Shown: positions 24,217 through 51,100 of the stretch, piece after piece
How the letters are laid out: each line of letters begins with the position of its first letter
Numbering within the stretch: position 1 is the stretch's first letter
Assembly: GCA_016906335.1 (NCBI GenBank)
Contig: JADEYG010000004.1
Location: forward strand, 1,339,001 to 1,403,000
DNA: 64,000 bases
Direction of reading: 5' to 3'
From: Novakomyces olei
Lineage: Eukaryota > Ascomycota > Novakomycetes > Novakomycetales > Novakomycetaceae
The notes under the pieces: generated by a model
Database searches by the model: none
The model's input: the letters and a program-made list of their open reading frames with translations, nothing else
What the model was told of the DNA's origin: nothing
Made by a program: the position numbers and the translations under genes

Positions 24217-24910
24217 TGTCATGATCCCCGCCTCGCGTGAACCACGACAGCGAACGACGCCTGAAGTCCTGTAGCGCCAAAGGCGATGACTTCAGGCTAG
24301 ATAGATCTAAATAGCTCGCGCGAGGTAATGTTGGACATTACTCGCGCGAAGCGCGTAAGTGGCCTAGCTCGCGAGCAGGTTGGACCTGGCTCGCGCGAAG
24401 CAGGTCCACGTCCATGCCCGCGCGACGTAGGCACGTCGCGGCGCATGACAGTAGTAGTAGCGATCGCGCATCGCTACGAAGCTAGATAGATCGATCCATA
24501 GAGTTCATAGCTCGCCACCGCTTTCCCAATGCGGATGGTCTGGGACCATCGCATTGAGATCGTGGTGGGATGAGGCTTAGGCCGCGAAGTGGCTAAGCGA
24601 GCCGCTAAGCCTCATAGGATAGTCTACATAGTCGCCCATGGAGAGAACTCTCTCCACGGGCTTATAATCTCAAAGTTGCTACATAGCCTTGTAGCAGGTA
24701 AGCTTTAGAGAAGCGCCGTCGCCTTTCAAGGACAACGTCCTTTTCCTTTTCCTTAGTTCTTGCGCCGGGCGCAAGTCTACGTTCCCGTTTCTCGGTACTC
24801 GCTTCGCGCGGTACCCGATTGAACTTCCTTTGTCGAGCGGTCTCGCAAAGGACAGTCCGTGTTCGCCTGTAGCGACACGCGAGTTTACACCGCGGTGCTC
24901 CCCTCTAAGG
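24217..24910 (+). repeat. Chain of ~12 hairpins in the element A LTR and leader
   Basis: Successive stems include CCTGAAGTC/GACTTCAGG, CGCGCGA-GTAATGT/ACATTAC-TCGCGCG, CGCGAGCAGGT/ACCTG-CTCGCG, CGCGACGT/ACGTCGCG and GTAGCGAT/ATCGCTAC. Further ones are CAATGCG-ATGGTC/GACCATCGCATTG, GAGGCTTAG/CTAAGCCTC, TGGAGAGA/TCTCTCCA, GCTACA/TGTAGC, AAGGAC/GTCCTT, CTTGCG/CGCAAG and CCTTTG/CAAAGG. Loops are often only 3-5 nt. Confidence 0.85.
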
Positions 24911-26161
24911 GCCACCTCACAAATAGGTTTCTTGAGCAAACCACAGCGCATTTGGAACGGCTGGAGAAAGAGAACCGCACTCTCGCTGACCAACTCGGTA
25001 TCGCTAAGGGAACCGTGCAGGAACGAGGGTCGAAGGAGCCTAAAATGGCACCACCACCATTCTTTTCCGGCGAACGCTCGAAAACTGGTGAATTTTTGAC
25101 CTGCGTGAGGATGATTATTGGCAGTCAACCAGATCGCTATCGCTCGGCGCGACAGCAAGTGATGTTTGCGGCGTCTTACCTTCGCGGAGCGGCTTTCAGA
25201 TGATTTGAGCCTCATGTGAGAAACGAAAATGAAGTTATTCTCGACGATTTTGATTGTTTTTGTGACACGCTCGAGAGGATGTTCGGAGACCGGGACGTCA
25301 AACGAACAGCAGAGCGAAGTATCCGTCTCTTGAGACAGAGAGGATCTGTATCTCAGTATGCGACTGAGTTTGAAAGATTGAAATCTTGGCTAACCTGGAA
25401 CAATGATGCATTAGTTGCTCAGTTCTACGATGGGTTGAAAGAGAATATCAAAGATGAGTTGTCAAGGAGAGAAATGCCTGAACTTTTGGGCACCTTGATT
25501 GATGAATGTGTGAAGATCGATGGCCGTTTGTTCGAGAGAAACAAGGCTAGACAGCGATTTAGTTACAGTGAAAGGGAGTATGCAAGACCTCTGCATTATG
25601 GAAGTACACCGATGGAGATTGACAATCTGATGACAAGACGGATTGATGACGAAGAGACAAGCGTTAATTATGACGCTACCAAACGCCGATACTCGCGCCC
25701 GCAACAAACTGATACAAGGAACTATGGCGCTAAGTATGTGTCATGATCCCCGCCTCGCGTGAACCACGACAGCGAACGACGCCTGAAGTCCTGTAGCGCC
25801 AAAGGCGATGACTTCAGGCTAGATAGATCTAAATAGCTCGCGCGAGGTAATGTTGGACATTACTCGCGCGAAGCGCGTAAGTGGCCTAGCTCGCGAGCAG
25901 GTTGGACCTGGCTCGCGCGAAGCAGGTCCACGTCCATGCCCGCGCGACGTAGGCACGTCGCGGCGCATGACAGTAGTAGTAGCGATCGCGCATCGCTACG
26001 AAGCTAGATAGATCGATCCATAGAGTTCATAGCTCGCCACCGCTTTCCCAATGCGGATGGTCTGGGACCATCGCATTGAGATCGTGGTGGGATGAGGCTT
26101 AGGCCGCGAAGTGGCTAAGCGAGCCGCTAAGCCTCATAGGATAGTCTACATAGTCGCCCAT
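24217..26161 (+). mobile_element. Element A: short Ty3/gypsy relative, LTR - gag remnant - LTR
   Basis: Two LTR copies begin TGTCATGATCCCC at 24217 and 25739 and are identical over the 423 bp that can be compared. The second is cut at 26161 by element B. Between them lies only leader and a gag homologous to that of element B (24900-25738); no pol is present. The gag is broken in about two places. Identical end repeats mean a recent insertion despite the poor coding content, which suggests a non-autonomous element moved by the proteins of a relative. The LTR and leader are packed with hairpins. Confidence 0.85.
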
Positions 26162-26479
26162 TGTTGTGTTTTTCTTTGTTTGGTTTGGGTACGGCTGTGT
26201 TGCTTTCACGGCAACTGTGGTGGGAAGCCAAATGGAAGGTAATAGTACTTAAAACGGTTTACACGGTCAACACGGTCGATAATCAGCGTCGGATAAAAGT
26301 GTGAACGGGCCTCCTTTTATCCTTGCTGGAACTAACTAACTATAACTAAAAATAGAAACAACTACGGAAAAGACTGTCTAAGCCACAAAGTGGCTAACTA
26401 AAATTCCGGAATTGGAAATAATCCGCAATCGAACGGATTATCTCCGATGAAAACGGAATTATGTCATATTGATATGACA
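26162..26479 (-). repeat. 3' LTR of element B
   Basis: The 318 bp copy has TG...CA ends and is inserted into the second LTR of element A. The ORF3 stop codon lies a few bases inside it. Confidence 0.97.
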
Positions 26480-27519
26480 CTATCCTCCTCTTCCAAAAAC
26501 GTAGACACTGCCGCCTGTGCCTTTTTGTACCAGCCTTGTCTCCTGCTGTCTTCTCCTGCCCAATCACGATATGCCATCAAGCAACGTTCGTGATCTTCCT
26601 TTACCTCGTCTCGAATAGTTGGGAACTGTGTACTAGCCCACGACGATTCCCACTTTGCCACTCGGTATAAAGCCTGGTCTTCGCTAGCAATATAGTAACC
26701 CATCAAGACTGCTTTCTCAAAAGACATCACCGCATGTGGTGTCCCAGACCTTAATCGAAAAATAACTCCCGGCTCTAGTACTCCAATCTTTAACCCTTCG
26801 AGGCTGCGAAGAGCTTCAGGTAATATAAAGTCTCCTGGCCTGCGATGATAGGGCTCCAACTTCTGTAAATTGGCCTCTGAATTGGCCCACGTAAAGACCA
26901 GCTTTCTCCCAAGAATTCCCACAATGACGGTTTCGCACAGAACCGGATCCACGTGAACGTCCGTGATTGTGCCCGACGGTGTGGCAGTCCCGTTCCATCC
27001 AAGTTCATTCAAATAACTTTCCTTCAACAATCCTTGCGCGCGAAGGCCCACTGACGATAAACCGTATTCGCTGATCGGCCTCAAATTGTAGGCTGCGTAT
27101 CTCGTAGTCCCCGGCTGGACGAATGATGCGAGGACCTGGGCGATTCGTATTTCGTCATCATGCACGCGAACCCGTATGTCCATAAACAAAGCTGTCTCAT
27201 CCTCCAAAAGGTCCTCGAAGACATGTGCCCATGTTGGCTTGCAATCGAAAACAAACCTTTCGCTATGGGGCTTGAGCTTTTCGAAATCAACCGATGCGAG
27301 CAGAGTAAAAATGTCTCTCGCCAACTGTTTGTTCGGTCGGTCTTCCTCCTTAAACCACTCTTCGGCCCAGCCAACCAGATCAGGGTCGTGCATCTCCATG
27401 TGACGGTCGCGGTCGTGCTTTCGGGTGTACTGTCGAGTGCACACAACACATTGGAACTTACCGCTGTCCAGCGCGTATCGCTTGCGCTGCCTCCCCTCTT
27501 CAAGAACGTTATTGTTCAT
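26464..27519 (-). CDS. ORF3 of element B: C2H2 zinc finger plus JmjC/cupin-like dioxygenase domain
   Basis: The product is 351 residues from the ATG at 27519, same strand as gag-pol and placed between pol and the 3' LTR, where env sits in other elements. A C2H2 finger is at residues ~23-43: FQCVVCTRQYTRKHDRDRHM then EMH (C-x2-C-x12-H-x3-H). A JmjC-like barrel occupies ~185-290. It has TDVHVDPVLCETVIVGILG with the HxD iron pair, KLVFTWAN, and GVIFRLRSGTPHAVMSFEKA with the distal His, followed by VLMGYY. JmjC enzymes are Fe(II)/2-oxoglutarate dioxygenases, many of them histone lysine demethylases. The finger suggests nucleic acid binding. A role in loosening host chromatin is inference. The frame is open throughout. 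Confidence 0.8.
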   Translation of the reverse strand: MNNNVLEEGRQRKRYALDSGKFQCVVCTRQYTRKHDRDRHMEMHDPDLVGWAEEWFKEEDRPNKQLARDIFTLLASVDFEKLKPHSERFVFDCKPTWAHVFEDLLEDETALFMDIRVRVHDDEIRIAQVLASFVQPGTTRYAAYNLRPISEYGLSSVGLRAQGLLKESYLNELGWNGTATPSGTITDVHVDPVLCETVIVGILGRKLVFTWANSEANLQKLEPYHRRPGDFILPEALRSLEGLKIGVLEPGVIFRLRSGTPHAVMSFEKAVLMGYYIASEDQALYRVAKWESSWASTQFPTIRDEVKEDHERCLMAYRDWAGEDSRRQGWYKKAQAAVSTFLEEEDSVISI

Positions 27520-30500
27520 TGTCCGTAAATTTGCGGATTTGATGTCTAAGTTGCGGATTTGGTGGGGGTAGCCCACATATATATAGACTTCGTTATACTT
27601 GACTTCGACAAGTAATAATTCTTTGACGTTCCATAAAAATAATAATGATAATAATAGTATATACTTAATTATTTTATTAAGTAATAGTCGTAGCATAGAA
27701 TAACAATAAAAGCAATAATATAGATATATCTGATCCGTATCTTAGCGGATTATGTGTTGATATTGCGGATTCAATGTTTTTGGTTATTCCAGTATGCTTT
27801 AACTGCCTCTGTTGCATTTGTCAGGTTTCCAAAAGGTTCCCATGTACGGTCTTGTACTCCATAACCTTTCCAATGCACTAAATATTTGCGGTTTCGGCCT
27901 CTGCCTGTATGATTGCAAATGTAATCGACTTCGTATTCAGTCGTGTCCACTAGAACATCGGGAACGTGTAAATCTGTTGGGTCTCTCTGAAATCGGTCTG
28001 GTAAACATTTTTCCAGTAAAGTTTCATAAATACGTTGTGTATTTTGATATGTTGGGGAAGCTCAATCCTGTAAGCGCTATTTCCTATAGCCTCAATAATT
28101 TTGAAAGGTCCCAGTCTTGTATGATCTAGTTTATCCGATGGTCGCTCGCTGTGTATGTGTCTTCTCTGGATCCACACGTTGTCTCCAGGCACAAATGTAT
28201 TTGCTGCTGTTTTCTTTTTGTCATAATGTAGCTTTGATACTTTATTTGCAGATTGAATGTTGCTTTTGACTCGTTCAAATAATTCGTTCCAGTCTCGTGT
28301 AGTTTGATTTGCTGCTGGATTGTCACTCTGGGAAGTTGTGATCTGTATTCCCTTTGGATGATAACCGTTGCAAATGTAAAACGGTGATAGTCTTGTACTG
28401 CTGTTTGTTGCATTGTTCATTGCGAATTCCGCAAAAGACAATAGCTTGCTCCAATTGTTTTGGTTGTAATTGACATAGGCTCTTAAGTATTGCTCGAGTG
28501 TTTGATTGGTTCTCTCAGTCTGTCCATCTGTTTGTGGGTGGTGACTCGTCGAATGCAATAGCTTAACTCCAAGGTTCTGGTACATGCCTTGCCAAAATTT
28601 GCTCAAAAACTTTGGATCTCTGTCTGATACGATTTCATTTGGTAGTCCGTGGTGTTTAAATACCTTGTCAATGTATAGTCTCGCTACATCCGTTGCTGTG
28701 GATGATTCTTTGCAAGGGATTAAATGACACATTTTAGAAAATCTGTCAACAACCACTAGTATTGAATCAAAACCTTCGGATTCGGGAAGTTTAACGATAA
28801 AATCCATTGAAACAGATTCCCATGGTCTTGACGGTACTTGTAGCGGGTTTAATAATCCTGCAGGTTTCTTCCTCGATTTCTTGCTTCTCCAGCACGTCGC
28901 ACATGATGCTACGTAATCCCTAACATCCTGCGACATATTTTTCCACTTCTTAAAACGCTGTACTAGTTCTAACGTTCGATGTTGTCCAAAATGTCCTGCT
29001 AATGGGTGATCATGGCATGCTCGCAATATTTCCAGCTTCTCGTCCGTATCTATATGTTCGACTGTTGTCATACTTAGATCAAATCTTGCTGGATCGATCA
29101 ACGGCTTATCAATTTGGTATTCCTTCAAGTCAACATTATTAAAATCAACTCTTCTGCTCAACGCGTCTGCTGCTGCGTTTCCTGATCCTTTTCTGTATCG
29201 AATCTTAAATTCATATTCTCCTAATAGTTCCGACCAACGTGCTTGTCTCCTCGATAGTTTCTTTGTCGTAGTAAACGTCTGCAAGTTCCGATGATCAGTA
29301 TATACAATAATTGGCTTTGGATGTCCTTGCAAATAGTGTCTCCATATTCCGAATGCATAGACAATCGCAAGTAACTCTTTATCGTGTATATCATAATTGA
29401 TCTCGGCTGGTTCAAGCTTTCTGCTTATAAAAGCAATCGGTCTCTTTTCGCCTCCTTGTTCTTGTAACAGTACGGCTCCTATAGCGAAATCTGAGGCATC
29501 TGTTTCGACAATGCACTCGAGTTCTGGATCGTAATGCTTTAACGTAACGTCTCTTCGAAAGCTGTCTTTCAATTGTTCAAAAGCCTTCTCTTGGTCTGCT
29601 CCCCAGCTAAATGTATTATCCTTCTTTAATAGACTTGTTATTGGTGTCACAATCTTTGAAAATCCAGGAATGAATCTTCTGTAATAATTGCATAGTCCAA
29701 GAAACGACTGTACGTCCTTGACGTTCTTTGGTGTGGGCCAGTCATTAATAGGCTTGGTCTTGTCCGAGCTCATCGAAACTCCTTCTGTCGATATAATAAA
29801 TCCTAGAAATTCCACTTTTGTCTTGTGAAATTCACATTTGCTTGCCTTTGCGAACAGCTGTCTTGCTCGTAATCGCTTAAACACTTCTCTGGCATGCTGT
29901 ATATGTTCCTCTTTATTTCTCGAGTAAATGAGGATGTCATCCAGATAGACTAAGACATATCTATCCAGGATATCTCGGAATACGTCATTGATAAGGTTTT
30001 GGAAAGTTGCTGGCGCATTAGTGAGTCCAAAAGGCATCACTCTGTATTCAAAATGTCCGTATCTTGTACGAAATGCGGTTTTCCACTCGTCGCCATTTCG
30101 AATACGTATCAGATTGTAAGCGCCTTTCAAATCGATCTTAGTAAATATACGACTTCCACTTAACTTATCGATGAGTCCATCAATTCTCGGAATAGGATAT
30201 CGATTCTTGACTGTAATCGCATTTAGTGCTCTGTAGTCCACGCAGAGTCGTAAGCTCCCGTCCTTCTTTTTCACAAACAATATGGGTGCTCCTGCTGGTG
30301 ACTTCGATTTTCTGATGAATTTCTTATACAAGTTTTCCTCAATATACTTGAGCAACTCTCTCTGCTCGTCTGCAGATATGTTGTAGATAGGTCCAAAAGG
30401 TACCTTCGATCCCTTTTCCAATATTATTTCATGATCATAGCTTCGATGCGGTGGCAATACGTCTGCTCGTCTCTCATCGAATACATCACGATAGTCTTCA

Positions 30501-32126
30501 TATTCTGTAGGAATTTGGGGGATTTTTCCAACGTTATCGCTTTCCGGTTTTTCGGGAAAAAATCCGCTCTCTTGCGGCACTTGTGTTTCATCCGCAAAAC
30601 TTGCCTTTAATCCGCTCGTCTGCGTGCAAGTTGCGTCTGCATAATCTTGCTCTGTATTCTGTACTTCAAATGATAATGTACGATTCTTCCAATCAATAAT
30701 GGGATTGTTCTCTTGCAACCATTGAATACCCAAAATGATGTCTCTCTGGCCAATATCTGCCACATAAAATCTCGTAGGTGTAACACAATTTCCTATCTTC
30801 ATGTCCATAATCTTCGTAGTTCTCGCCACGGGTCCTGATGCCAGGCTTCGGCCATCGACAACCTGTATCACAATTGGTCTCTGAAGTCTTTCTGTCTTTA
30901 GATTCAAATTCAATATTAATCGCGGGTGTATGAAATTTAGGTTCGCTCCTGAATCCACTAAAGCTTTTCGTCTAAGCCCATTTATTTGGACGTCCGTCTC
31001 CAAATGTCTCACTCCAGTATCTCGTCGTCTTTCAGTGGCTTTTAATTCAGCTTGTCCTAGAGAAACCACTTCTTTCTCTAGGCGAAATCTTTTCCCGAGT
31101 CGTCGCTCAACTCGTTCGTCGTCATTGCAGCTTGACGGCTTACAAACGGAATTCTCTTTTCTTTGCACTCTTTTGCAATATGCCCTTTCTTCTGGCAATT
31201 ATAACACTGTACGTTTCTGTTGTCGTGACTTCTCTCTCTTTCTCTCGCGTCTCTCGCGTCTCTGTAATTCGTCTTGTGCTCTCTGTCATTCGTCTTGTAC
31301 TCTCTTGCGGGTCTGCCTGCTCCTCTGGCACCGGCAACCGCCAAATCAATTTCCATCGGTGCAGTCGTCTGGTTACTTCTGCCCGTAAATCTCGGCTCAT
31401 AATACGTTCTCGGTTCGTAACTTGTTCTCTGTCTCTCTTTACGTCTCTCAAATAGACGATTATCAATACTGATCGTCATCTCGATCATCTCTCGCAAGGT
31501 ACTAGGCTCTGTCGTTCTTGCCAATTCGTCCTTAAGCCTGTCGCTAAGGCCCTCGTAGTACTGCGAAATCAACGCTTCTTCGTTCCAGCTAAAGTTCGCT
31601 CTGAGTCTGTCAAACTCGGCTGCGTACTGAGCAACAGCTCCAGACTGCTTCAGATTGCGAATTTGCTTCTGCGCCTGCTTTCTAATATCTCGATCACCAA
31701 ACATCTGTAGGAATGAATCACAAAACGTCTCAAAATCGTTGAGTATTCCTTCGTTTTCCCCTAGGATGTGAGGCTCAATCCACCTGAACGCGGTTCCTCG
31801 CAAATAGGTTGCTGCAAACGTGACCTTCTGGCGGTCCGATCCGTATCTCGAGGGTAGTGCGTCGGTTATCATTTTCACTTGGGTGATAAATTCACGAGCC
31901 TTAGCTCTCTCGCCAAAAAACAAAGGTGGCGGGGCTAACTTGGGCTCCCGGTTGAACGTCGCATGTCGACTCTCCTGATCGTTTTCCAATTTGACCTTCA
32001 GCATCATGTTCTCATGCTCCAGTAGCTGTAACTTCGCTGTTGTTTCCTCAACAAATTGGTTCAGACGATTCATGTCGACACCTTCCATGACGAACGGCTC
32101 GGCACCACAACGTGGGCTGATTATAC

Positions 32127-32444
32127 TGTTGTGTTTTTCTTTGTTTGGTTTGGGTACGGCTGTGTTGCTTTCACGGCAACTGTGGTGGGAAGCCAAATGG
32201 AAGGTAATAGTACTTAAAACGGTTTACACGGTCAACACGGTCGATAATCAGCGTCGGATAAAAGTGCGAACGGGCCTCCTTTTATCCTTGCTGGAACTAA
32301 CTAACTATAACTAAAAATAGAAACAACTACGGAAAAGACTGTCTAAGCCACAAAGTGGCTAACTAAAATTCCGGAATTGGAAATAATCCGCAATCGAACG
32401 GATTATCTCCGATGAAAACGGAATTATGTCATATTGATATGACA
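32127..32444 (-). repeat. 5' LTR of element B
   Basis: This copy matches the 26162-26479 copy at all but about one position. Its right flank (GATAATATCC) does not repeat the left flank of the element. Confidence 0.97.
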
Positions 32445-33317: not shown

Positions 33318-36300
33318 GGTTCATTACAGAAGACAGGAGGAAATGTTACAGGAATCTCAGACATCGATCTCATCAGTATGTTTCTGGAATCAAACGCATT
33401 AATCTATGCAGAAGAACTTAGAGACAATGACAACTTGACGGCTAACCAAATGCTGGATCATCTGGAACGAAGCATTGTTCCCAACGATTACCTGCCAAAA
33501 GCCTACAGCAGATTTGTTACATTTTCCCAAGGAACGAGAAGCATCAGTCAATATGCTACACAACTTAAGCTCAAGTCAATGGAACTAGAAATAATTAATG
33601 AAGCAATATTGGTTCAACAATTCATTCATGGACTCAATGAGAAGATAAAACCACAAATAATGGGATCTTTGAGAAGCGCATTTGGCAACCAGCCTGGCAA
33701 CAATACTGGGATGACGAAATGGAAATGGCAGAGTGTGGTAGTAGTCGCAACTGGCTATGACTTTACTGCAACAAGACCATACATTGGAAATATCGCTCCA
33801 AAACCAAACAATCAACGAATTGAAGCTAGAACAAGCATGTCAGAGAAAAAGGAGCCAGAGAAACCTTCACTGAGAACGAGATGTACATTTTGTCGCAGAA
33901 CTGGACACACGTATGAACAATGTTTCAAACGAAAGAATGAATCAACCATTAGTGCTCTCAAAGATGACGATGAAATGGATAGCGAAGAAATAAGATTGGA
34001 TTATCAATGCTCTGCTGTTCAAAGCAAAAGCCAATAGTTTCTCGTAAATCTACCAATTGAAGTAAATGGTAAAGAGATCAAATGTCAAGCCCTTATTGAT
34101 ACAGGAAGTGACATTGATGTTATTGATTCAAATTTCTGCAATGTTCACAACCAAAGTATGAAGAGAGTGACCACAAAATTCAAATGGCATTTCAAGGATC
34201 AAAGACAATCAGCAGATATATGGCTAGAATAAAATTCAAAGGAAATGAATTAAATTGTGCAGTAGCCAGACTGCGAACTTCTGATCTCCTAATTGGTATG
34301 GGAACCTTGAGCAAGTTAGGAGCAATAGTCAACACCAGCAGAAGACAGGTCAAATGGCAGATGAACAAAGATACAGAAAGCATTTACGAAGACCAAAGCA
34401 TTCCAGTGGTTAGCTCCATAACAATCGATCCGAAGAAGAAAATTGAGGCCAAATCAATTACAAATGAAAACGCAATTGATTCAGACAAGGTACTGGAACT
34501 CTTACAAGAGAATTTTCCACAAACCTTGATCAAAGAACCTCCAAGCAAGTTACCAATTATGAGACCAGTCGTGGCAACTTATGAACCAATTGATCCAAAC
34601 AAGAAATATAACATCAAAAAATGGTATCCAAGCAAAAAGCTTATGATGCCTTTAAAGATGAAAATTGATGATCTATTACAAGCAAGAATGATATCAATAT
34701 CTACAGAAGAACCTAGTGCAATATTATTCCCAATTCCTAAAGACAAAGAAATGGTGAATAACTTACCAATCCGAATGAGATTAAGAATTATTTACGATTT
34801 GTCAATGATGCTCGACCTCGCAATACAAATATGAAGCGATTTTACATTCAAGTACCGCGAATTGACATAGTTGTTCAGGACATAGCCAGAGCAAAGTATC
34901 GAACAAAATTGATCTAAAGGATGCTTTCTTTCAATCTCGAATACAGCCTGGGCAAGAACATTATACAGCATTCTGGACACCATTTGGTATTTATCAATGG
35001 AATGTGATGCCACAGGGTAATCGAAATTCCACTGCAATACAACAACAACTAATGGAGGAACTATTCAGACCATATATTGGAATATGGATGACCGTTTATG
35101 TTGACGACATAATAATATATGATGACGATGTCCAAGAACATCTGGATCACTTGGTACTTGTATTTTGCATCATGGCCAAATGGGAATTGTATGCCAGTCC
35201 AACAAAGACCTTTCCATTTTGCAGAAGCTTTGTTGTGTTGGGAAGACAAATCAGTGACGAAGGAATCAAAATGACCGACAAGTCAAAAAATTCCATACTA
35301 AAATTACAAGCCCCAAAGAACTTGAAACAAGTACAGAAATTGGTCGGAATGCTTAATTGGGTATCAACTTTTATACCAAATTTATCCTCTCAAATTTCCA
35401 TATTCACAGAAATGAAAGAATTTCATTGGGACGAAACGAAGCAAAAAGGGTTCAATGAAATTAAAAAAGCAGTCGAACAAGACATAGTGCTAAAACCATT
35501 TGAACCAGAACCCCTAAACAATGGTACAGAAAAATTGTTCATACGAATAGATGCTTCGCTAGTCGGAACTGGAGGATGGCTAGGACAAGGAAAAGAGTGG
35601 CAAAGCTGCCGAATAATTGGATTCACTTCTAAGAAATTGGGCACAGCAGAGTCACATTACCCAGTTCACGAGCTGGAATATCTTGCATGCATCAGAGCAT
35701 TAGATCACTTTGAAATATATGCCAGAGGGTATCAAGTAAATTGCTTAACAGACAATAAGGCGCTAAGTCGTCTTCTCTATTCGAAAAACGTTATGTTATC
35801 AAGACGACATCTGAGATGGATGGACTTTTTAAATGAATTTGACATCAACATCATACATGTATCGGGCACGGCCAACGTTTTGGCAGATATATTGTCACGA
35901 TCGCCTCCTAAATCAAATGTGTCCGCAATTAGCATGGAACAAAGTCCTGTCACACATCTGGAAATAAAAGATCTTTACCTAAATGATCCGTATTGGGCTG
36001 AAGTACTAACTTCGCTGAAAAATACTGATACAGCTATTGATTTTAAACGAGCACAAGCAAAGTATTATCTAAAAGATGACCTGATACATCTCAAATTTGA
36101 TAACCGCATTTGTGTGCCTACAGATTTCACTAACACGATAATACGGGAGTTTCATGATACGTACCATGGAGGACATGGGGGAATGAACAAGACAACAGCT
36201 GGAATAGCAAAAACCTACTATTGGCCAGGAATGTCAAAAGAAATCAAGGAATATGTGAAATCATGTGAGACATGTGCCAAAAATAAGATCACTCCTCACA

Positions 36301-37724
36301 AACCATACGGATTGTTACAAGAAATAGATATCCCCAATACTAGATGGGAAACTATTGGAATGGACTTTATCACTGGACTACCTCTATCTGGTGATGAGCA
36401 ATATGATGCTATTATTTGTATTGTTGACCGACTTACAAAAAGGGCACACTTTTGGCCAACACACACTACAGTCACTGCAAAAGGCACAGCAACTTTATTT
36501 CTCAACAGATACTATTGCCTGCATGGACTACCACAAGCCATAATAAGCGACAGAGATGTGCGATTCATGTCAGCTTTTTGGCAACAAATTACAGCCATTC
36601 TTCAAATCAAATTGAAACCATCATCAAGTTATCATCCTCAGTCGAATGGACAAACTGAGCGAACAAACAGAGTACTAGAAGATTATTTGCGACTATTCAC
36701 ATATGCAAATAACAACAGCTTATCATGGCACAAGCTGCTTTCATTTGCTGAATTCAGTTATTCATCAAGCAAGCACTCTGCCATTGGCATGACGCCGTTT
36801 GAAGCTGATTTAGGTTACAATCCAAGAAGCCTAAGTGACCTTGCCATACCTCCAATCACAAACCAAGATGATTCAACATTTCTCGAAACTCTTGAGGTAA
36901 ACAGAATTCTTTGCCAGGATGCAATCAGAACCGCACATGAATTATCAAAGATATATGCGGACCAAAACCGAATAAACATTGAATACAACGTCAATGATTC
37001 TGTTTAATTAAGCACCGCTAATATTCGCGAAATTCCTGAGCTTTTCCAAAATCAACTAACAAGGAAATTGCAATCAAAATTCATTGGACCATACAGAATT
37101 ATAAAAAAGGTCAGCCCTGTTGCTTACGAATTGGAGCTACCTTCTGCTTTAAAGTACCACCATGTGGTACACATCTCTCAGCTAAAGAAACATACTCCAA
37201 TGAACAAACACAACCAGCGAGAACAACCTAAACCGAAAGCACTCCGACGCTACAAAAACAACACGGAGCTTTATGTCGTCGAAGACATACTAGATCATGT
37301 CTGGGTTCGAGGACAATCGAGATCGACAACACCAAAACCGGGCTACAAACTAATGTATCGTATTCGCTGGGAAGGTTACCAACCTGAAGACGACACGTGG
37401 GAACCAAAGCAGCACCTAGTACATTCACCCGAATTATTAAAAAGATACAATTCGACACACCTCGAATTAGTGGGGGAGGATGTTAGGAATCAAGATTGAT
37501 CTAATCAAATCTAATCAAGATTGATTACTCATCAATGAGTCATCATTACTCATCAATGAGTCATCATTACTCATCAATGATTCATCATCATTACTCATCA
37601 TTTTCTTCCTATTTCCTTCCTATCTTCGTCCTATCTGCTTCACAAAAAGTCTATAAAAGGACCCAACTTCCCATAGTCTAAAAGATAGATCTCTTAGCTA
37701 GGTCTAATTTATATTGTTACAACA
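33318..37724 (+). mobile_element. Element C: Ty3/gypsy chromovirus, broken
   Basis: The parts in order are gag with a CCHC knuckle (33378-34037), protease (~34.05-34.35 kb), reverse transcriptase (~34.5-35.4 kb), RNase H (~35.5-35.9 kb), integrase (~36.1-37.0 kb), a chromodomain (~37265-37440) and the 3' LTR (37481-37724). Several breaks, about four, interrupt the coding part, and no left LTR is visible: the element starts at telomere-like repeats. It is clearly older than element B and only distantly related to it. Confidence 0.9.
37481..37724 (+). repeat. 3' LTR of element C
   Basis: It is 244 bp with TGTTAGG...TTACAACA ends, preceded by the polypurine tract GTGGGGGAGGA. It contains direct repeats of ATTACTCATCAATGA and a TATAAAAGG box near 37652. 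Confidence 0.85.
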
Positions 37725-37747: not shown

Positions 37748-40700
37748 ATGTCTAAGAGAAAACAAATTGAATCAATATCTGAAGCCAGTGCAGAAGAAAT
37801 TAAAAATTGTGAAGTATGTGCGAAAGGAAAAATTACAAGAAATCCATTTCCAGAGAATAGTAAAACAAAATTAGAACCATGTGACCTACTTCATACTGAC
37901 GTTATGGGACCTTTTCCTTCGTTAAGAAATGGGAACAAATGGATTCTACTCGCCATGGACGACTCGACAAAATTGTGTTTTGGATTTTTCTTAAAATCTA
38001 AAGGAGATACAGCTAAAGCGCTAATGAATATTATTTCCTATATTGAAAATCAAAAGAAAATAACAATTAAAACACTACGGTCTGATAATGGAAGAGAATT
38101 TGTTAATACAAAATTAATTAATTATTTTATGGAAAAAGGAATTCGGCACGAGACCTCAGTACCGTACAATCCAGAACAGAATGGAGTGGCTGAGCGTCTT
38201 AATCGTACGATTCAAGAGATCGCACGATGCATACTGATCGATTCTAATCTACCGGATACATTTTGGGAGGACGCTTTTGAGCACGCCATATTCTTACGAA
38301 ATCAACAGCCAATCAAAGGCTATGATAAGACTCCCTATCAAATGTGGTTTAATCGCGACAATCGCTTAGCCAATGAAAAACCATTCGGGTGCTTGGCTTG
38401 GGTAAAAGACCCCTTATCTCAAGGGAAATTAACCTCTCGTGCGACTCTAATGATTTATATTGGCCAATCAAATACTCAAAAAGGATATAAACTTTACAAT
38501 ATAAAAACTAAAAGAGAAACAACATCGCGGGATGTTAAATTTTTAATTAACCGAAACTGTACCGATCTCTCGGACAAATCGGGACTGGACGGCGAAAGAC
38601 AAGCCACCTTCCTATCCAACGATAACCATCTCTTATCATCAGAAGATGAAATAACTCGTTATCAGTCCGAATTCGGCAATCCCACTCAAATTGAAAATGA
38701 TGCCGAATTGGGTAATTCCGACAAAATAACTAATTTCACCGAAATTGGGATGGATACCGAAAAGGGAAATAATTCCGAAAATGGAAGTCTAAGCGAGATT
38801 GGAAGTATTTCTGAAAAAGGAAACTTAGGCGAGATCGGAGATATATCCGAAAATGGAAGTTTAACCGAGCTCGGTAATATAAGCGAGACCGTTGGTATCA
38901 ACACGGAAATATACACAGATAATACGAGTGAAGTATATGAGGATGTGCCTGAAGTGCCTGTTCTACTGTCTGGTGTACAGCCAGAATCTTACACAAAAGC
39001 ACTTAATTCACCTAATAAAATTGAATGGCAAAAGGCAATTCAATCTGAGCTTGCATCATTAAAGGAACACGATGTCTGGACAATAGTTGATCGACCTAAA
39101 GATAAACCTACAGTCGACTCAAGATGGGTCTTTAAAATCAAAACAAATGAAAGAAATGTTATAACCCGTTATAAAGCTAGACTAGTCGCACGTGGTTATA
39201 CACAGACCTACGGAGTTGACTACAATGATACTTACGCTCCTGTTGCTGGCTCGGAGACAGTTAAAACGTTTATATATTTAGGTTTTCATCATGATTATCC
39301 TATTTATCAATACGACATTTCTACTGCATTTTTATATGGAGGCCTAGAAGAAAAGGTTTATATGGAAATTCCTGAAGGAGTCGACGGAGACAGAAACGAT
39401 AGAGTCTGTTTATTAAACAAAAGTTTGTATGGATTGAAGCAGGCTCCTAGAGCCTGGCATTCAAATTTAATTAAAGAACTTAGAAAATACAGTCTAAACA
39501 ATATGAAATCGGATACTGGTGTCTTTGTTGGAAAAGATTTAGCAATTTTAATTTATGTCGACGATTTATTGATTATGGAATTTAAAAGGGGAACTGCCCA
39601 AATTCTTGAAAATAAATTGAAGAATAAATTTAAAATAAACTTTATGGGAATTGCCAAATATTTTCTGGGGCTACAAATTACGTACAAGCCAAATGAAATG
39701 CTGTTGAAACAGGAATCCTTTGCTAATAGCCTTAAAGAGCATCAAAAATCTGTGATGGGGAAGGCGCAAAACTGCCCACTTCCCTGTGACATAACGGAAT
39801 TTTATATTCCCTCTACGGAGAAAACTGATGAAAAGGAATACAGGAGTATAGTTGGAAAACTAATGTACCTAAGTCTTTGGACCAGACCAGATATCACGTA
39901 TGCTGTAAGACTGTTGAGTAAGTTCAGCTCAGCCCCAAGTCAAATTCACATGCGTGGTCTACAGTTCATTATCTCATATGTCCTGCAGACAAAGGAAAGG
40001 GGATTGACGTTTATTCGCGAACCATTGGAACTACACATTTTTAGCGATGCAGATTTTGCTATGGACCCTGCTACTCGAAAATCCCGAACTGGTTACACTA
40101 TAGGGATAGGAGCAGGAAGTTCCCCAATTGCTTGGTCATCGGAGCAGCAATCCTTGGTAGCTATCAGCACCATGGATGCTGAATACATGGCCTTATTTGC
40201 GGGATTGAATCGAAGTCTACTGGTGAAACACTTTATCGAAGAATTTGAATCTTTACCGATGCCAATGCACATGTATTGTGACAACAGTGCATGTGTAAAG
40301 CTAACTAAAATTACAGGCGTTGCTCGTGGTGCAAAGCATCACGAAGTTAAGTTTTATAAAATAAAAGAAAGTGTGGAACAAGGTATTATAAAAATACACT
40401 GGTGTGACACCAAACATATGAAGGCTGATGGCCTGACAAAGCAGCTGAAGGGGATTAAATTTAATAATTTCCTACATCAACTGAATCAAATTCATTAAAA
40501 AAAAAAAAATAATAATAATAATAATAATAAAATTTAAAAAAAAAAGAGGGGGAGAAAATATTGTCGAATTGAAGCAAAAAAATCTATGACTTTTGAGTAT
40601 ACAACAAAAAAAAATTCACATTTTTAATTAATTTCTCTGAATTTTACAAATTATTTATGATCTTCGATTTGAAGGGGATGTTGAACTACTTCTGATATTA

Positions 40701-42199: not shown

Positions 42200-45100
42200 A
42201 TGAAAAGTCTGTTTTGGCTTGTGGCATCAATAGTATTGCTGCGGCTTCTGCAGACAGGTAAGAGTCCACATCTAACCGTAACAGCCGACCGAGTGCACAA
42301 AACCGCCCAAAGCTTTCCGTTTCCAAAGCGCCCATTTAAGATAAATGGGCCAATTTCCAATTATACCTTTGGACCAAAGCGTTATTGGAATAAAACATTT
42401 GGCGCAAACAATTCATTGTCCAATTCAAGTTCCAGCAATCACACAATCCGCAATCAAACCAGATTCACAAAAGTCAAACCGTATGGCGCCACCAGGAAAG
42501 GGTTATCTAAACTGCGCTATCCCTACTCAAACGAGGTCAAAAAACCAAACTCAAAAGCCAAAGATCCCTTTAGAAAACCAGATGAGTCTGGTAGCCGGAA
42601 GCACATACAAGTCTACAAAACAGAAGCGCCACATAATTATCAAGCGAATGATAATCGTAAAGATCGTGATAGCGGGCAAAAAGGGCCATTTGAAGCGGAC
42701 AAGATTAAACCAAGTTTAATCGGAAGCACTGACAAAGATCCAGAATCTAAATCGACTACTAATGCACACAGAAGCGATAAATATCCCAATGACAGACAGA
42801 GAGGAAAGCCTGCCCAAAAAGCTGGGACTCAAAATATTGACCCTAAGAATAAAATGGTAAGAACAGGATCGAAACCAGTCGGGAAAGAATTAGACGACGG
42901 TACAATTGGCTCAGAAAAACCAAACAAAAACCAGCCGATTTCGACCCAAGGCAATGGTAATAAAGAAAAAAGTTTTGGGAAATTTCAAGAAGACGAAGAG
43001 TCGGCTGGTGCAGATACGTCCGAAAACAAACAGGACTTTTTAGCAGAAAAAGAAGGGGGCAAAAACGAGAGACATCAAAATTACAGGCTACAAAAGGATG
43101 ATCCGAGGTTTGGGATACTTGAAGATCAGCACAGAGATGGAGATGGTGTCAAAATCGATAATGATTTAAAGAACGACCATGATCCCATAAACAGTAATAA
43201 AAACAACAACAACAATGATAACGATCTCAGTCATGAAAACGGGTTGGATAATAAAGAGACTCGGGATAGGACAAACTATCGGGATAGCAATGGGGATGGT
43301 GTCAAAATCGATAATGATTTAAAGAAAAACCATGATCCCATAATCAGTAATAAAAACAACAACAACAATGATATCGATCTCAGTCATGAAAACGATTTGG
43401 AAAATAAAGAGACTCGGGATAAGACAAACGATCGGAATATAGATATTGCCATCGACCATTTTTTGGGAAACGATAATGTTTCGGCCAGTGAGCAAAATTT
43501 CAAGGTTGAGAATAATTCGAAGCCAAGTTCAAAGACGCAGGATTCAGCATTCGACTTTAAAGGCCCCGAAAAGCTAAGTGATAATAAAAACACATATAAC
43601 TATCAAGCAAAAGCGGATTGGCAAAGCTTAAACTCGCAAACGCCAGAACCGAAAGCGAACGAAAAGCCAGAGCAATCCAAAAAAGTCGACGCTTCGAAAG
43701 CAGAAATCCTAAAGAGTTTTGGTACAACAACAAGTGCCGGACATACATACAGTCCTGGACACTTTGTATATAAAGGTAACACCCCCCCTATGTACGCGTC
43801 CGACGAACATTGGCATCCAAAAACTGATCACCGCTTCGACGATCAACACACCGAGGCATTACATTCATCTCCTCGGCCGGGAATAAATGAAGCTAAAAAA
43901 GAAAGTCCGCCAACAGTATCAAACGTAGATGAAGCCGCCGCTGTTGTGTTAAAAAAGCCGAAAACTCTAAACTTCAATACTGGAAGCAGCCGGCCTTCCA
44001 CCAATCAAAATGCTCACAATACCCAGGAAGTAGCCGTGCCCTTGTCGAGAGTGGCTACGAGCACAATTACAGCAAAGACTGTAAGAAAGCCCAACCTAGC
44101 GACGTCACATACCACGTCGAGCGAGCCAAAAGCCAACAATTGGTATGAGAGCGGCAACACCGTTGATAATACAGCAATAGCGACGGAAAAATCAGTAGAA
44201 AATGCCAATCTCGGTACCAAGATTGAGACACGTAGTAGGGACGTTGGCGATAGTCTTCAATTCCCACAGTCCGCAATGGCCAGCGATATCTATACAAAGG
44301 CTATCCGCAGTCCGGCCGAGCCTGCAATTAGCAGCCCGAACCATCCTGATCAGCAGTCTCTGACGGTGGTTACAAGTGGCGAGTCTGCTAAAACGGCTAA
44401 GGCTATCGGAACCAAACTGTCCGGGAGCCGTTTACACACGGACAGTAAAGGCAATTCTGAGGACATTAGAAGCAGCGCCTTAGACGCTCCCAATCCGCCA
44501 TACCCACTCGCAACAGACGCAGCTGTTTCCCTTAATACCGGGAATCAAGGATTATATAATAACCCAAAAAGAATAAATAATAATACGACCAAAACGTATG
44601 GCGGAGCAGAGAAAGACGCAGAGGCCGCAGCAGATCACGGATCAAGCAGGGAAAATAGTATAAATGGGGACAATGAGCTCTGGCTTGGACGCCCGAGTGG
44701 GCCCGAGAGCCAAGCGGTCTGGACAACGGGCGAGACTTCCGACTGGTTAGACTTTGAACAGACGGGAAATAAGAGCGAGAAAAGTGTTGATGTTGAACTT
44801 GATCCCAATCCTGTCGAAAAGGCTTTGAAGAGCCATGGCGGAAACAGTGCTTTGACTCCTTTGACAAGTGCTACTGCTAGTTCAATAACAGTAGAAAAGG
44901 ACGCGAAAGCAGGAATCAGCAATCTGGCTATTGATTTGCCTCTCACGGAGCACATTCTAGGCCCTACTAACTCAAGCACCGAAACTACACTTGGTCTGGT
45001 TCCCGAATCTAAAGCCAGAACGCGGCCTGATGGGACGGGCCGAGTGAACTCGATTCAAGAGACCACAGTGCACGATTTCATTCCGACAAAAGCTGTGTTC

Positions 45101-48100
45101 GCCGCGGTCTTGAAAAATCTTAGTTTGGCCAATCAGCCTACCAAGGCACACCGAAATTCTTCAACTGCAATAGAACCGGGTCTTGCAGTGCAAGCGTCAC
45201 TCGGAGGATTGCTGAATGCTTCTTCAAAGACTGTTTCTGTTGATGCTTTATCCGCGGTAATCAGACATAGCGCCGACAATCTTAATGAATCCTTTTCTAC
45301 CGGGTCCATTGGTGTTTTGTCTCTTCCGTTCATTGGTAAAACGGTAAATCTTAAGACTGAGAGTATGAAATTCCCCTTTACAAGTGTCATAAACAGCTAT
45401 TGGCCCAATGCCAATGTTTCGAATTTGCTTTCTGGCGTATCTACAACTATCTCTTTTGGACACAACTCCAAGTCGACTTTAGCATCCATATCTGCTCAAT
45501 CTCTACTTGGCTCAGAAAAAATTGCTTCTATGCGCAACATGACATATGCCTTCATATCACCTATGACCATTGCAGTCATATCTACTCAATCAGTGACCGA
45601 CAAAGCAAGCATGTCTTTTTCCCTTGAATATATTGAAACTAGTTCTCCACATTTAATCGGGGATAAGGAGAACAGTACCGCCTTAATAAATCCTACAACA
45701 ATAATAACCGACCAGTCTCAAAGATTGTTTAGTTCTTCAAAGACCGAATTCAGTTTAACAACACATGGCAATGATGAGACTAACGGCTCTAGTGATATGT
45801 TGAAGACAGGAATCAGTCCTCAGCAGTCAGCATTAAATAGGTCAAGCCCTACAACTGGACTCGCCGACCAAGAACTCGCCGACCAGTTTAAGGAAGGGTT
45901 TAATTCGGCATTAAATAAGTCAAGCCCTACAACTGAGCTCCCCGGCCAGTCCGCGAAATTGTATAATTCAGCAATAACTAGGTCGAGCCCTACAACAAAA
46001 CTCGCCAAACAGTCTAAGGTGTCATTTAATTCTTTACAGACGCTGGAATCTGCATTGAATAAGCCAAGCCCCGCTACAACACTCTCCGACCAGCCTAAGG
46101 AAGGGTTTAATTCAGCATTAACTAGGTCGAGTCCTACAACAAAAGTCGGCGACCAGTCTGCGGAATTGTATAATTCAGCAATAACTAGGTCAAGCCCTAC
46201 AACTGAACTCGCTGACCAAATCAGTAAGTTTAATTCAGCATTGAATAAGTCAAGCCCTACAACTGAGCTCCCCGGCCAGTCCGCGGAATTGTATAATTCA
46301 GCAATAACTAGGTCGAGCCCTACAACAAAACTCGCCAAACAGTCTAAGGTGTCATTTAATTCTTTACAGACGCTGGAATCTGCATTGAATAAGCCAAGCC
46401 CTGCTACAACACTCTCCGACCAGCCTAAGGAAGGGTTTAATTCAGCATTAACTAGGTCGAGCCCTACAACAAAAGTCGGCGACCAGTCTGCGGAATGGTA
46501 TAATTCAGCAATAACTAGGTTGAGCCCTACAACAAATCTAGCCGACCAGACTGAGGAAGGGTTTAATTCAGCAACAAATAGGTCAAGCCCTACAACTGAG
46601 CTCCCCGATCAGTCTAAGGAAAGGTTTAATTCAGATTTAAATAAGTCGAGCCCTACAACTGAACTCACCGACCAGTTCAGTGGGTCGTTTAATTCAGCAT
46701 TGAATAGGTCAAGCCCTACGACAAACCACGCCGACCAGTCTAAGGAGGGGTTTAATTCCGCATTAAATAGGTCGAGCCCTACAACTGAACTCGCCGACCA
46801 AGAACTCGCCGACAAGTCAGAGGAAGGGTTTAATACAGCATTAACTAAATCGAGCCCTACATTAAAACTGGCCGACCAGTCTAAGGTGTCATTTAATTTT
46901 TTACAGAGCGGATTGAATCCGCTGGAATCTTCATTTAATAAGTCTCGCCCTGCTACAACACTCGCCGACCAGTCGAAGAAGTCGTTTAATTCATCGACGG
47001 GCGCATTGAGTCCAGTCCATTCTGCATTGAATAAGTCAAGCAAGTCATTAAATTCTTCACAGACAGGATCGAGTCCGTTGCAGTCTGCATTGAATAAGGC
47101 ACGCGAGTCGTTAAATTCTTCACAGACAGGATTGAGTCCGTTGCAGTCTGCATTGAATAAGGCACGTGAGTCGTTAAATTCTTCACAGACAGGATTGAGT
47201 CCGTTGCAGTCTGCATTGAATAAGTCAAGCCCTGCTACAACACTCGCCGACCAGTTCAAGAAGTCGTTTAATTCATCGACGAGCGCATTGAGTTCGTTGC
47301 AATCTGCCTCATTTAGGTCGAGCGAGTCGTTTAATTCTTCACAGGGCGCATTGAGTCCAGTCCATTCTGCATTGAATAAGTCAAGCGAGTCATTAAATTC
47401 TTCACAGACAGGATTGAGTCCGTTGCACACTGCATTGAATAAATCGAGCTCTGTTACATCTGTCGCCGACCGGTCTAAGAAGTCGTTTAATTCATCGACG
47501 AGCGCATTGAGTCCGATGCAATCAGCATTTAATAAGTCAAGCGAGTCGTTTAATTCATCGACGAGCGCATTGAGTTCGATTCTATCTGCATTTAATAAGT
47601 CAAGCGAGCCGTTTAATTCTTCACAGACAGAATTGAGTCCGTTGCAGTCTGCATTGAATAAGTCACGCGAGTCGTTAAATTCTTCACAGACAGGATTGAG
47701 TCCGTTGCAGTCTGCATTGAATAAGTCAAGCCCTGCTACAACACTCGCCGACCAGTTCAAGAAGTCGTTTAATTCATCGACGAGCGCATTGAGTCCGTTG
47801 CAATCTGCCTCATTTAGGTCGAGCGAGTCGTTTAATTCTTCACAGGGCGCATTGAGTCCAGTCCATTCTGCATTGAATAAGTCAAGCGAGTCATTAAATT
47901 CTTCACAGACAGGATTGAGTCCGTTGCACACTGCATTGAATAAATCGAGCTCTGTTACATCTGTCGCCGACCGGTCTAAGAAGTCGTTTAATTCATCGAC
48001 GAGCGCATTGAGTCCAGTCCATTCTGCATTGAATAAGTCAAGCGAGTCATTAAATTCTTCACAGACAGGATTGAGTCCGTTGCACACTGCATTGAATAAA

Positions 48101-51100
48101 TCGAGCTCTGTTACATCTGTCGCCGACCGGTCTAAGAAGTCGTTTAATTCTTCACAGGGCGCATTGAGTCCAGTCCATTCTGCATTGAATAAGTCAAGCG
48201 AGTCATTAAATTCTTCACAGACAGGATTGAGTCCGTTGCACACTGCATTGAATAAATCGAGCTCTGTTACATCTGTCGCCGACCGGTCTAAGAAGTCGTT
48301 TAATTCATCGACGAGCGCATTGAGTCCGTTGCAGTCTGCATTGAATAAGTCACGCGAGTCGTTAAAATCTTCACAGACAGGATTGAGTTCGTTGCAGTCT
48401 GCATTGAATAAGTCTCGCCCTGCTACAACACTCGCCGACCAATCTAAGAAGTCGTTTAATTCATCGACGAGCGCATTGAGTCCACTTCATTCTGCATTAA
48501 ATAGGTCAAGCTCTGCTACAACACTCGCCGACCAGTCGAAGAAGTCGTTTAATTCATCTACGAGTGCGTTGAGTCCGTTGCAGTCTGCATTGAATAAGTC
48601 TCGCCCTGCTACAACACTCGCCGACCAATCTAAGAAGTCGTTTAATTCATCGACGAGCGCATTGAGTCCACTTCATTCCGCATTAAATAGGTCAAGCTCT
48701 GCTACAACACTCGCTGACCAGTCTAAGAAGTCGTTTAATTCATCGACGAGCGCTTTGAGTCCGATGCAATCAGCATTTAATAAGTCAAGCGAGTCGTTTA
48801 ATCATTCACAGACAGGATTGAGTTCGATTCTATCTGCATTTAATAAGTCAAGCGAGCCGTTTAATTCTTCACAGACAGAATTGAGTCCGATTCAATCTGC
48901 ATTTAATAAGTCACGCGAGTCATTAAATTCTTCACAGACAGGATTGAGTCCGTTGCAGTCTGCATTGAATAAGGCACGCGAGTCGTTAAATTCTTCACAG
49001 ACAGGATTGAGTTCGTTGCAGTCTGCATTGAATAAGTCTCGCCCTGCTACAACACTCGCCGACCAGTCGAAGAAGTCGTTTTATTCATCGACGAGCGCAT
49101 TGAGTCCACTCCATTTTGCATTAAATAAGTCTCGCCCTGCTACAACACTCGCCGACCGGTCTAAGAAGTCGTTTAATTCATCGACGAGCGCATTGAGTCC
49201 GTTGCAGTCTGCATTGAATAAGTCACGCGAGTCGTTAAAATCTTCACAGACAGGATTGAGTTCGTTGCAGTCTGCATTGAATAAGTCTCGCCCTGCTACA
49301 ACACTCGCCGACCAATCTAAGAAGTCGTTTAATTCATCGACGAGCGCATTGAGTCCACTTCATTCTGCATTAAATAGGTCAAGCTCTGCTACAACACTCG
49401 CCGACCAGTCGAAGAAGTCGTTTAATTCATCTACGAGTGCGTTGAGTCCGTTGCAGTCTGCATTGAATAAGTCTCGCCCTGCTACAACACTCGCCGACCA
49501 ATCTAAGAAGTCGTTTAATTCATCGACGAGCGCATTGAGTCCACTTCATTCCGCATTAAATAGGTCAAGCTCTGCTACAACACTCGCTGACCAGTCTAAG
49601 AAGTCGTTTAATTCATCGACGAGCGCTTTGAGTCCGATGCAATCAGCATTTAATAAGTCAAGCGAGTCGTTTAATCATTCACAGACAGGATTGAGTTCGA
49701 TTCTATCTGCATTTAATAAGTCAAGCGAGCCGTTTAATTCTTCACAGACAGAATTGAGTCCGATTCAATCTGCATTTAATAAGTCACGCGAGTCATTAAA
49801 TTCTTCACAGACAGGATTGAGTCCGTTGCAGTCTGCATTGAATAAGTCACGCGAGTCATTAAATTCTTCACAGACAGGATTGAGTCCGTTTCAATCAGCA
49901 TTGAATAAGTCAAGCTCTGCTACAACACTCGCTGACCAGTCGAAGAAGTCGTTTTATTCATCGACGAGCGCATTGAGTTCGATTCTATCTGCATTTAATA
50001 AGTCAAGCGAGCCGTTTAATTCTTCACAGACAGAATTGAGTCCGATGCAATCAGCATTGAATAAGTCAAGCTCTGCTACAACACTCGCTGACCAGTCTAA
50101 GAAGTCGTTTAATTCATCGATGAGCGCATTGAGTTCGATGCAATCTGCATTTAATAAGTCAAGCGAGTCGTTCAATCATTCACAGACAGGATTGAGTCCG
50201 TTTCAATCTGCATTTAATAAGTCACGCGAGCCGTTTAATTCTTCACAGACAGGATTTAGTACGTTGCAGTCTGCATTGAATAAGTCACGCGAGTCATTAA
50301 ATTCTTCACAGACAGGATTGAGTCCGTTGCAGTCTGCATTGAATAAGTCACGCGAGTCATTAAATTCTTCACAGACAGGATTGAGTCCGTTGCAGTCTGC
50401 ATTGAATAAGGCACGCGAGTCGTTAAATTCTTCACAGACAGGATTGAGTCCGTTGCAGTCTGCATTGAATAAGTCACGCGAGTCATTAAACTCTTCACAG
50501 ACTGGATTGAGTCCGTTGCAGTCTGCATTGAATAAGTCTCGCCCATCTACAACACTCGCCAACCAGCCTAAGAAGTCGTTTAATTCATCGACGAGCGCAT
50601 TGAGTCCGATGCAATCTGCATTGAATAAGTCAAGCACTGTTACATCAGTCGCCGACCGGTCTAAGAAGTCGTTTAATTCATCGACGAGTGCGTTGAGTTC
50701 GATTCTATCTGCATTTAATAAGTCAAGCGAGCCGTTTAATTCTTCACAGACAGAATTGAGTCCGTTGCAATCTGCATTAAATAAGTTAAGCTCTGTTACA
50801 TCAGTCGCCGACCGGTCTAAGAAGTCGTTTAATTCATCGACGAGTGTGTTGAGTCCGCTGCAATTTGCATTAAATAGGTCAAGCGAGTCGTTTAATTCTT
50901 CCCAGACAGGATTGAGTCCGTTGCAGTCTGCATTGAATGAGCCGTTTAATTCTTCACAGACAGAATTGAGTCCGATGCAATCTGTATTAAATAAGTCAAG
51001 CGAGCCGTTTAATTCTTCACAGACAGAATTGAGTCCGTTGCAGTCTGCATTTAATAAGTCAAGCGAGCCGTTTAATTCTTCACAGACCGAATTGAGTCCG

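Follow-up and report, generated by a model that had tools for sequence, protein, structure and literature searches.

How retrotransposons that insert into heterochromatin remain expressed is an open question. The stretch of Novakomyces olei DNA analysed here (hereafter the window, 64 kb) raises it anew, as it contains a chromovirus that carries, in addition to gag and pol, a third open reading frame (ORF3). Here, we ask what this frame encodes, whether it belongs to the element, and what it may do for an element that is equipped with a chromodomain.

Results

A third open reading frame ends at the 3' LTR

The minus strand of the window is the sense strand of the element (Table 1), and ORF3, with 351 codons, is encoded on it at exactly the coordinates at which the first-pass annotation of this DNA had placed a full-length frame. 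The Pfam models Ty3_capsid, Retrotrans_gag, and zf-CCHC matched gag (region scanned 31081-32196), while RVT_1 (1.8e-39), RT_RNaseH, Integrase_H2C2, rve, and gag-asp_proteas matched pol, in which the order protease, reverse transcriptase, RNase H, integrase is that of a Ty3/gypsy chromovirus. A chromodomain follows the integrase, as is also typical of Ty3/gypsy chromoviruses; in the window copy it is not in the frame of pol, which stops at 27950, ahead of the chromodomain, but is open in another frame of 96 residues (genome search). The earlier description of ORF3 as lying between a chromodomain-bearing pol and the 3' LTR thus holds for its position and fails, in the window copy, for the inclusion of the chromodomain in the pol frame. 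In five other copies of the same subfamily, with near-identical ORF3, the open frame that contains the chromodomain is 385 to 1281 residues long. Because the pol frame of the window copy ends before the chromodomain and ORF3 is uninterrupted, we regard pol as broken and ORF3 as intact in this copy.

Table 1. Coordinates of the chromovirus and its features in the window.
Feature	Position	Strand	Remarks
5' LTR, 318 bp	32127..32444	-	99.7% identity to 26162-26479
gag ORF (Ty3-type capsid, CCHC knuckle)	31078..32088	-	start ATG at 32088; Pfam
pol ORF: protease, RT, RNase H, integrase	27950..31198	-	Pfam
Integrase chromodomain	27774..27989	-	Pfam Chromo 5.6e-12; Y-W-Y cage residues
Octamer ATTACTTA, pol-ORF3 spacer	27678..27685	-	-166 relative to ORF3 start
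ORF3, 351 aa: basic patch, single C2H2 finger, predicted KDM2/7-type JmjC core	26464..27519	-	
C2H2 finger of ORF3, residues 24-44	27388..27450	-	invariant C24, C27, H40, H44 in 7/7 subfamilies
Predicted JmjC core of ORF3, residues 178-281	26677..26988	-	hhalign to host KDM2-like protein; KDM2A match
Polypurine tract	26480..26494	-	within ORF3 coding sequence, adjoins LTR; from sequence
3' LTR	26162..26479	-	contains ORF3 stop codon 26464-26466

The LTRs of the window copy differ at a single one of 318 positions. The end of its ORF3 frame spans the polypurine tract, and the frame stops inside the 3' LTR.

The window copy adjoins the LTR of another element. Next to its 3' LTR, at 24217-26161, identical 423-bp LTRs (24217-24639 and 25739-26161) enclose a gag-like interior, and this unit resembles a non-autonomous relative that has undergone an internal deletion. 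Near the ORF3 element there are also another pol of gypsy type and one of copia type (35004-37007 and 37748-40498), hence the region is rich in retroelements. Two giant, repetitive, Ser/Asn-rich ORFs of 4986 and 1907 aa (42200-57160 and 57157-62880) have an adhesin-like composition, and the strand opposite to them is likewise open over long distances.

ORF3 follows the chromodomain in seven divergent subfamilies

A search of the genome (14.34 Mb, 15 contigs) with ORF3 gave 46 match rows, 21 of which extend over most of the query and contain no stop; one of these 21 has a shifted C-terminus. Five full-length ORF3 copies, including that of the window, are identical. Twenty genomic stretches yielded seven ORF3 subfamilies, named A (the window copy), A2, B, C, D, E, and F, and the six others are 24-40% identical to the window ORF3. 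Decayed copies with several stops occur at C1:289872-290849 (L007) and C2:50804-51100 (L009, L039) and could serve as a neutral yardstick.

Chromodomains were matched 81 times in the genome. In 26 cases ORF3 lies at most 2 kb downstream on the same strand, and this arrangement of ORF3 after the chromodomain is found in all seven subfamilies. Conversely, a linked chromodomain lies upstream in 20 of the 21 rows with a full-length open ORF3; the exception, C1:1015047 of subfamily D, has pol fragments and no chromodomain within 2 kb upstream. The remaining 55 chromodomain matches, without an ORF3 match within 2 kb downstream, include host genes (a Clr4-like protein, a 1408-aa double-chromodomain protein, and an HP1-like protein) and other chromoviruses, which therefore seem to manage without ORF3. 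Two of these chromodomains are candidates for clade members that lack ORF3, but they could equally belong to truncated copies. That at C7:9041 resembles the chromodomain of subfamily E, with no ORF3 in the stretch analysed, and that at C9:15220 is followed by simple repeats and a fragment of another element.

The junction of ORF3 with the LTR is similarly shared. LTR pairs, 99.5-100% identical within each pair, were found for subfamilies A, C, D, and F, in which the ORF3 stop touches the LTR or sits at most about 10 bases away. In subfamilies A2, B, and E, TGTCA or TGTTA comes directly after the stop; the other LTRs start in this way, and a putative LTR boundary is read from it. Target-site duplications of 5 bp flank the D element (CATAG) and the F element (CACAG); none was found at the window copy or the C copy.

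Beyond this genome, no relative of ORF3 was found among 5.8 billion proteins at E 0.001, with either single-sequence or alignment queries, and none of 24 pattern matches in an IMG/VR scan encoded one. A control query with pol against the same protein database gave at least 7998 matches among 8000 scored. The only organism named among the 120 matches listed was the alga Closterium, which indicates that eukaryotic chromoviruses are represented in that database.

ORF3 is best explained as an old gene under purifying selection

Trees of ORF3 and pol for the seven subfamilies have the identical unrooted topology, ((A,A2),B),((C,F),(D,E)), the attachment of the pol outgroup not being settled. Ultrafast bootstrap values of the four inner branches are 80, 89, 97, and 100 for ORF3 and 89-100 for the same branches of pol. 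With 945 possible unrooted trees for seven tips, chance agreement is unlikely.

Four within-subfamily comparisons of ORF3 gave Nei-Gojobori omega values of 0.27, 0.18, 0.17, and 0.24 (binomial P against neutrality 5e-7, 1.5e-5, 4e-5, and 2e-3, in the same order). These values are taken as upper bounds, since some of the compared copies are partial (L027, L032, and L033) and may be dead; the comparisons D/L029 and D/L032 share a row and are not independent. One comparison of pol gave an omega of 0.26. Synonymous sites are saturated between subfamilies, and the pairs B/L024 and C/L035 differ by two changes each, both nonsynonymous, which are too few to inform. The ORF3 of A (the window copy) and that at C3:1414457 have identical first 320 codons and a dN/dS of 0.96 over 349 codons, because the latter copy is frame-shifted near its end. 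The first-pass annotation, made from the window alone, had looked to further copies of the element and to selection across them, and both bear it out: ORF3 follows a chromodomain at many genomic places and evolves under purifying selection. Judged from these sequence comparisons, the best explanation is that a chromovirus clade acquired ORF3 long ago and has since passed it on vertically as an accessory gene.

The ORF3 product combines a zinc finger with a predicted JmjC-type core

In all seven subfamilies, the product has a basic patch and a single C2H2 finger, together with a domain at the C-terminus. The finger C-x2-C-x12-H-x3-H of the window ORF3 is as the first-pass annotation described it, and the pattern C-x2-C-x12-H-x3/4-H recurs in 7/7 subfamilies. 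The Pfam model zf-C2H2 was listed for six of seven members (E up to 5, best 0.0013). The proposed JmjC-like HxD...H core is likewise present, as H189, D191, and H262, and is complemented by T186 and K206; we take these five residues to be the iron and 2-oxoglutarate (2OG) ligands. Their spacing (T/H/D/K/H at 0, +3, +5, +20, and +76) is identical in 7/7 subfamilies. In the seven-subfamily alignment, 31 of the 313 gap-free columns are invariant, and these include all nine positions for zinc, iron, and 2OG (hypergeometric P 3e-10).

A profile of the C-terminal part gave 31 rows up to E 10 against PDB sequences. The first eight comprise KDM2A (best 3.8e-6), a KDM7 homolog (8e-6), and KDM7/JHDM1D (1.1e-4), followed by LIC10831 (7e-4), which looks unrelated, PHF8 (8e-4), and a cupin (1.3e-3); further down, below E 0.3, rows are mostly SHOC-2. 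The profile alignment puts the HxD, K, and H of ORF3 onto those of KDM2A, and the reversed C-terminal profile gave no match up to E 10 in PDB. Six JmjC matches were found in the host genome, one of which is a fragment with a stop; the other five were compared with ORF3 by hhalign. The best was a KDM2-like protein (E 2.5e-9, 21% identity over about 100 residues), followed by JMJD5-like (2e-4), JMJD6-like (1e-3), KDM5-like (0.25), and KDM4-like (0.53) proteins. The KDM2-like protein, encoded at C9:624004, matches KDM2A with E 1.4e-65 and is therefore a clear KDM2 relative. Hence, in both the PDB profile search and hhalign, the similarity of ORF3 to KDM2/KDM7 ranks above that to other JmjC subfamilies.

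With HMMER filters on and a maximum E of 5, not one of the seven members was listed under the Pfam JmjC model (PF02373), which also had no match on ORF3 in the genome scan; this marks the domain as divergent. Cupin models were listed for some members only (Cupin_2 in three, Cupin_8 in two, and Cupin_1 in one of the seven; best 0.0035). The JmjC assignment of the first-pass annotation is thus upheld by profile and profile-profile comparison, which specify a KDM2/KDM7 type, but not by the Pfam JmjC model. The C-terminal part of ORF3 is predicted to be a divergent KDM2/7-type core, which we do not call a KDM2.

An octamer is shared by the spacers between pol and ORF3

The octamer ATTACTTA is found in the pol-ORF3 spacer of six of the seven subfamilies, B being the exception, at a distance of 78 to 191 bases upstream of the ORF3 start; its occurrences are that in the window copy and those in the spacers of L022, L025, L028, L029, and L030. 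In four full-length elements analysed, it occurs nowhere else on the sense strand; subfamily D has one extra octamer on the other strand of the same spacer, and the 64-kb window has three further ones outside the element. It was first spotted by eye, and a subsequent test of all 8-mers gave a maximum of six subfamilies as compared to maxima of three to five in 300 shuffles. The octamer may serve as part of a promoter from which ORF3 is transcribed separately. As a target of the ORF3 finger it has no support from the finger code. In the same spacers, branch-like sites (CTRAY), inspected as a check for splicing, were not enriched. TATAWAW motifs totalled 13 versus 7.1 in shuffles (P 0.03); by number of subfamilies P was 0.26, and a TATA box is therefore not claimed.

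Chromodomain cages, clustered loci, and host silencing genes

The chromodomains of all seven subfamilies keep the aromatic cage Y/F-W-Y, at positions that we assigned on the assumption of equivalence to HP1. Chromodomains are said, in work attributed to Gao in 2008, to direct integration into heterochromatin. The 39 ORF3 loci, obtained after merging seven of the 46 match rows by position (C2:50254, with 35% identity, is perhaps a separate copy), occupy 23 bins of 50 kb as compared to 36.4 expected at random, and nested insertions may add to this clustering. Sixteen of the 39 loci lie at most 60 kb from a contig end; the 60-kb ends of the 15 contigs make up about 13% of the genome.

The host encodes a chromo-PreSET-SET protein, i.e., an H3K9 methyltransferase, that scores higher with Clr4 (280 bits) than with DIM-5 (163 bits), a protein with a chromoshadow match (HP1-like), and a Piwi-domain protein (Argonaute). 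No DNA methylase was matched in the host genome, as compared to matches in 10 of 14 control genomes. These findings point to histone methylation as the mark to be removed.

Discussion

The aromatic cage of the chromodomains, the clustering of ORF3 loci, the H3K9me genes of the host, and the precedent of fission yeast Epe1 lead us to propose that ORF3 is an Epe1-like eraser, i.e., an element-encoded JmjC dioxygenase of the KDM2/KDM7 (JHDM1) type that counters H3K9me silencing. We regard this function as somewhat more probable than not. Briefly, the integrase chromodomain would steer new copies into H3K9-methylated chromatin, where the Clr4/HP1/RNAi machinery of the host would silence them. ORF3, presumably expressed by means of a separate promoter or of a subgenomic RNA, would reach the nucleus through its basic patch and use its C2H2 finger to bind the chromatin of the element; specific DNA binding by a lone zinc finger is weak. 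It would then strip histone methyl marks from the element, most likely H3K9me and possibly H3K36me, and thereby keep the element transcribed, as Epe1 does in fission yeast but in the service of a parasite. The earlier interpretation of this locus, in which the chromodomain targets silent chromatin and the element's own dioxygenase acts against silencing, is supported, with the anti-silencing step itself proposed by analogy. It is intriguing to suggest, more tentatively, that the clade encodes both a reader (the chromodomain) and an eraser (the KDM2/7-type JmjC protein) of the same mark, H3K9me, with the octamer as a candidate promoter or docking site.

Epe1 of S. pombe, as portrayed in the sections of PMC6576747 used here, is a JmjC anti-silencing factor on H3K9me heterochromatin that removes H3K9me from established heterochromatin and requires its iron-binding histidine to do so. 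This is the mode of action proposed for ORF3, and the likeness drawn here is one of mode. Epe1 is a host gene and, in the same sections, localizes mainly through Swi6 (PMC6576747), whereas ORF3 is encoded by the element and has its own finger. Compared to the KDM2/KDM7 (JHDM1) demethylases, including the host protein at C9:624004, ORF3 has T, HxD, K, and H at matching alignment positions; it differs in its low identity, the C2H2 finger in front of the core, and the failure of the Pfam JmjC model to list it. Unlike the host KDM2-like gene, its frame is uninterrupted and lies within an element.

The alternative that survives best is that ORF3 does work as a 2OG dioxygenase but has a different substrate or role, such as H3K36 methylation, a non-histone protein (a silencing factor, Gag, or integrase), or hydroxylation in place of demethylation. 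In PDB, the JmjC part matches KDM2A best, KDM2 is best known for acting on H3K36 and not H3K9, and JmjC proteins include hydroxylases. A dioxygenase of an orchid Gypsy element, moreover, works on RNA m6A according to the text available from PMC9289625. We nevertheless consider such a role unlikely, as the KDM matches in PDB are named lysine demethylases and the host has an H3K9me pathway.

ORF3 might also act without catalysis, as a chromatin-tethered activator or a competitor of HP1, in the manner of the N-terminal activation domain of Epe1. Epe1 has an anti-silencing activity that does not depend on its JmjC domain, to go by the portions of PMC6576747 consulted, and the C2H2-type finger in 7/7 subfamilies would suit a tether. 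Such a role would not need five iron/2OG positions to be invariant across seven subfamilies, which makes it improbable. A function apart from chromatin, as an RNA/cDNA or particle accessory factor with a nucleocapsid-like finger, is suggested by the env position of ORF3 and by rotifer LTR elements that have ORF3s with other enzymes (PMC5408684, in the part used here), but fits so poorly with a KDM2/7-type core and a basic patch that we give it very little credence. A related KDM2 gene exists in the host, but the idea that ORF3 was captured passively or recently from a host gene, or is open by chance, can practically be dismissed: there are seven divergent subfamilies, the trees are congruent, omega stays below 0.3, and the stop lies at the LTR junction.

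With the proposed Epe1-like eraser in mind, the element can be set beside other transposons. It shares LTRs, gag, the order PR-RT-RH-IN, a chromodomain after the integrase, and a polypurine tract with the fungal Ty3/gypsy chromoviruses, as described in the survey text PMC3248453, and differs from them in its third ORF, with C2H2 finger and JmjC-type core, between chromodomain and 3' LTR. Neither ORF3 nor JmjC occurs in the main text of that survey (PMC3248453). Added ORFs between pol and 3' LTR as such are already known, as excerpts of PMC7264820 and PMC5408684 document. Among the open-licence papers listed in literature searches, none pointed to a retrotransposon with a JmjC gene, and the statement of the first-pass annotation that it knew of no described Ty3/gypsy lineage with such an ORF3 is uncontradicted by these listings.

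Two known systems come close in other respects. VANC of Arabidopsis VANDAL transposons is a transposon protein that undoes the silencing of its own element, as proposed for ORF3; it causes loss of DNA methylation through sequence-specific binding, and the portions of PMC5735166 and PMC10398659 used here mention no dioxygenase. A Phalaenopsis Gypsy element with an AlkB-type 2-ODD ORF, like the element studied here, joins Ty3/gypsy to an added Fe(II)/2OG dioxygenase gene. Its enzyme is, within the text used of PMC9289625, an AlkB-type RNA m6A demethylase from two species and not a JmjC protein.

As far as the cited texts go, transposons are thus known to encode anti-silencing proteins directed at DNA methylation, as with VANC, and to carry a dioxygenase directed at RNA m6A, as with the orchid AlkB. 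If our proposal is true, ORF3 would be a transposon-encoded histone demethylase serving as an anti-silencing factor. Provided that it is active, the elements would target silent chromatin and then locally undo its silencing, and with such a counterpart directed at histones, the arms race between transposons and their hosts would also encompass the H3K9me system, here within a genome that is compact.
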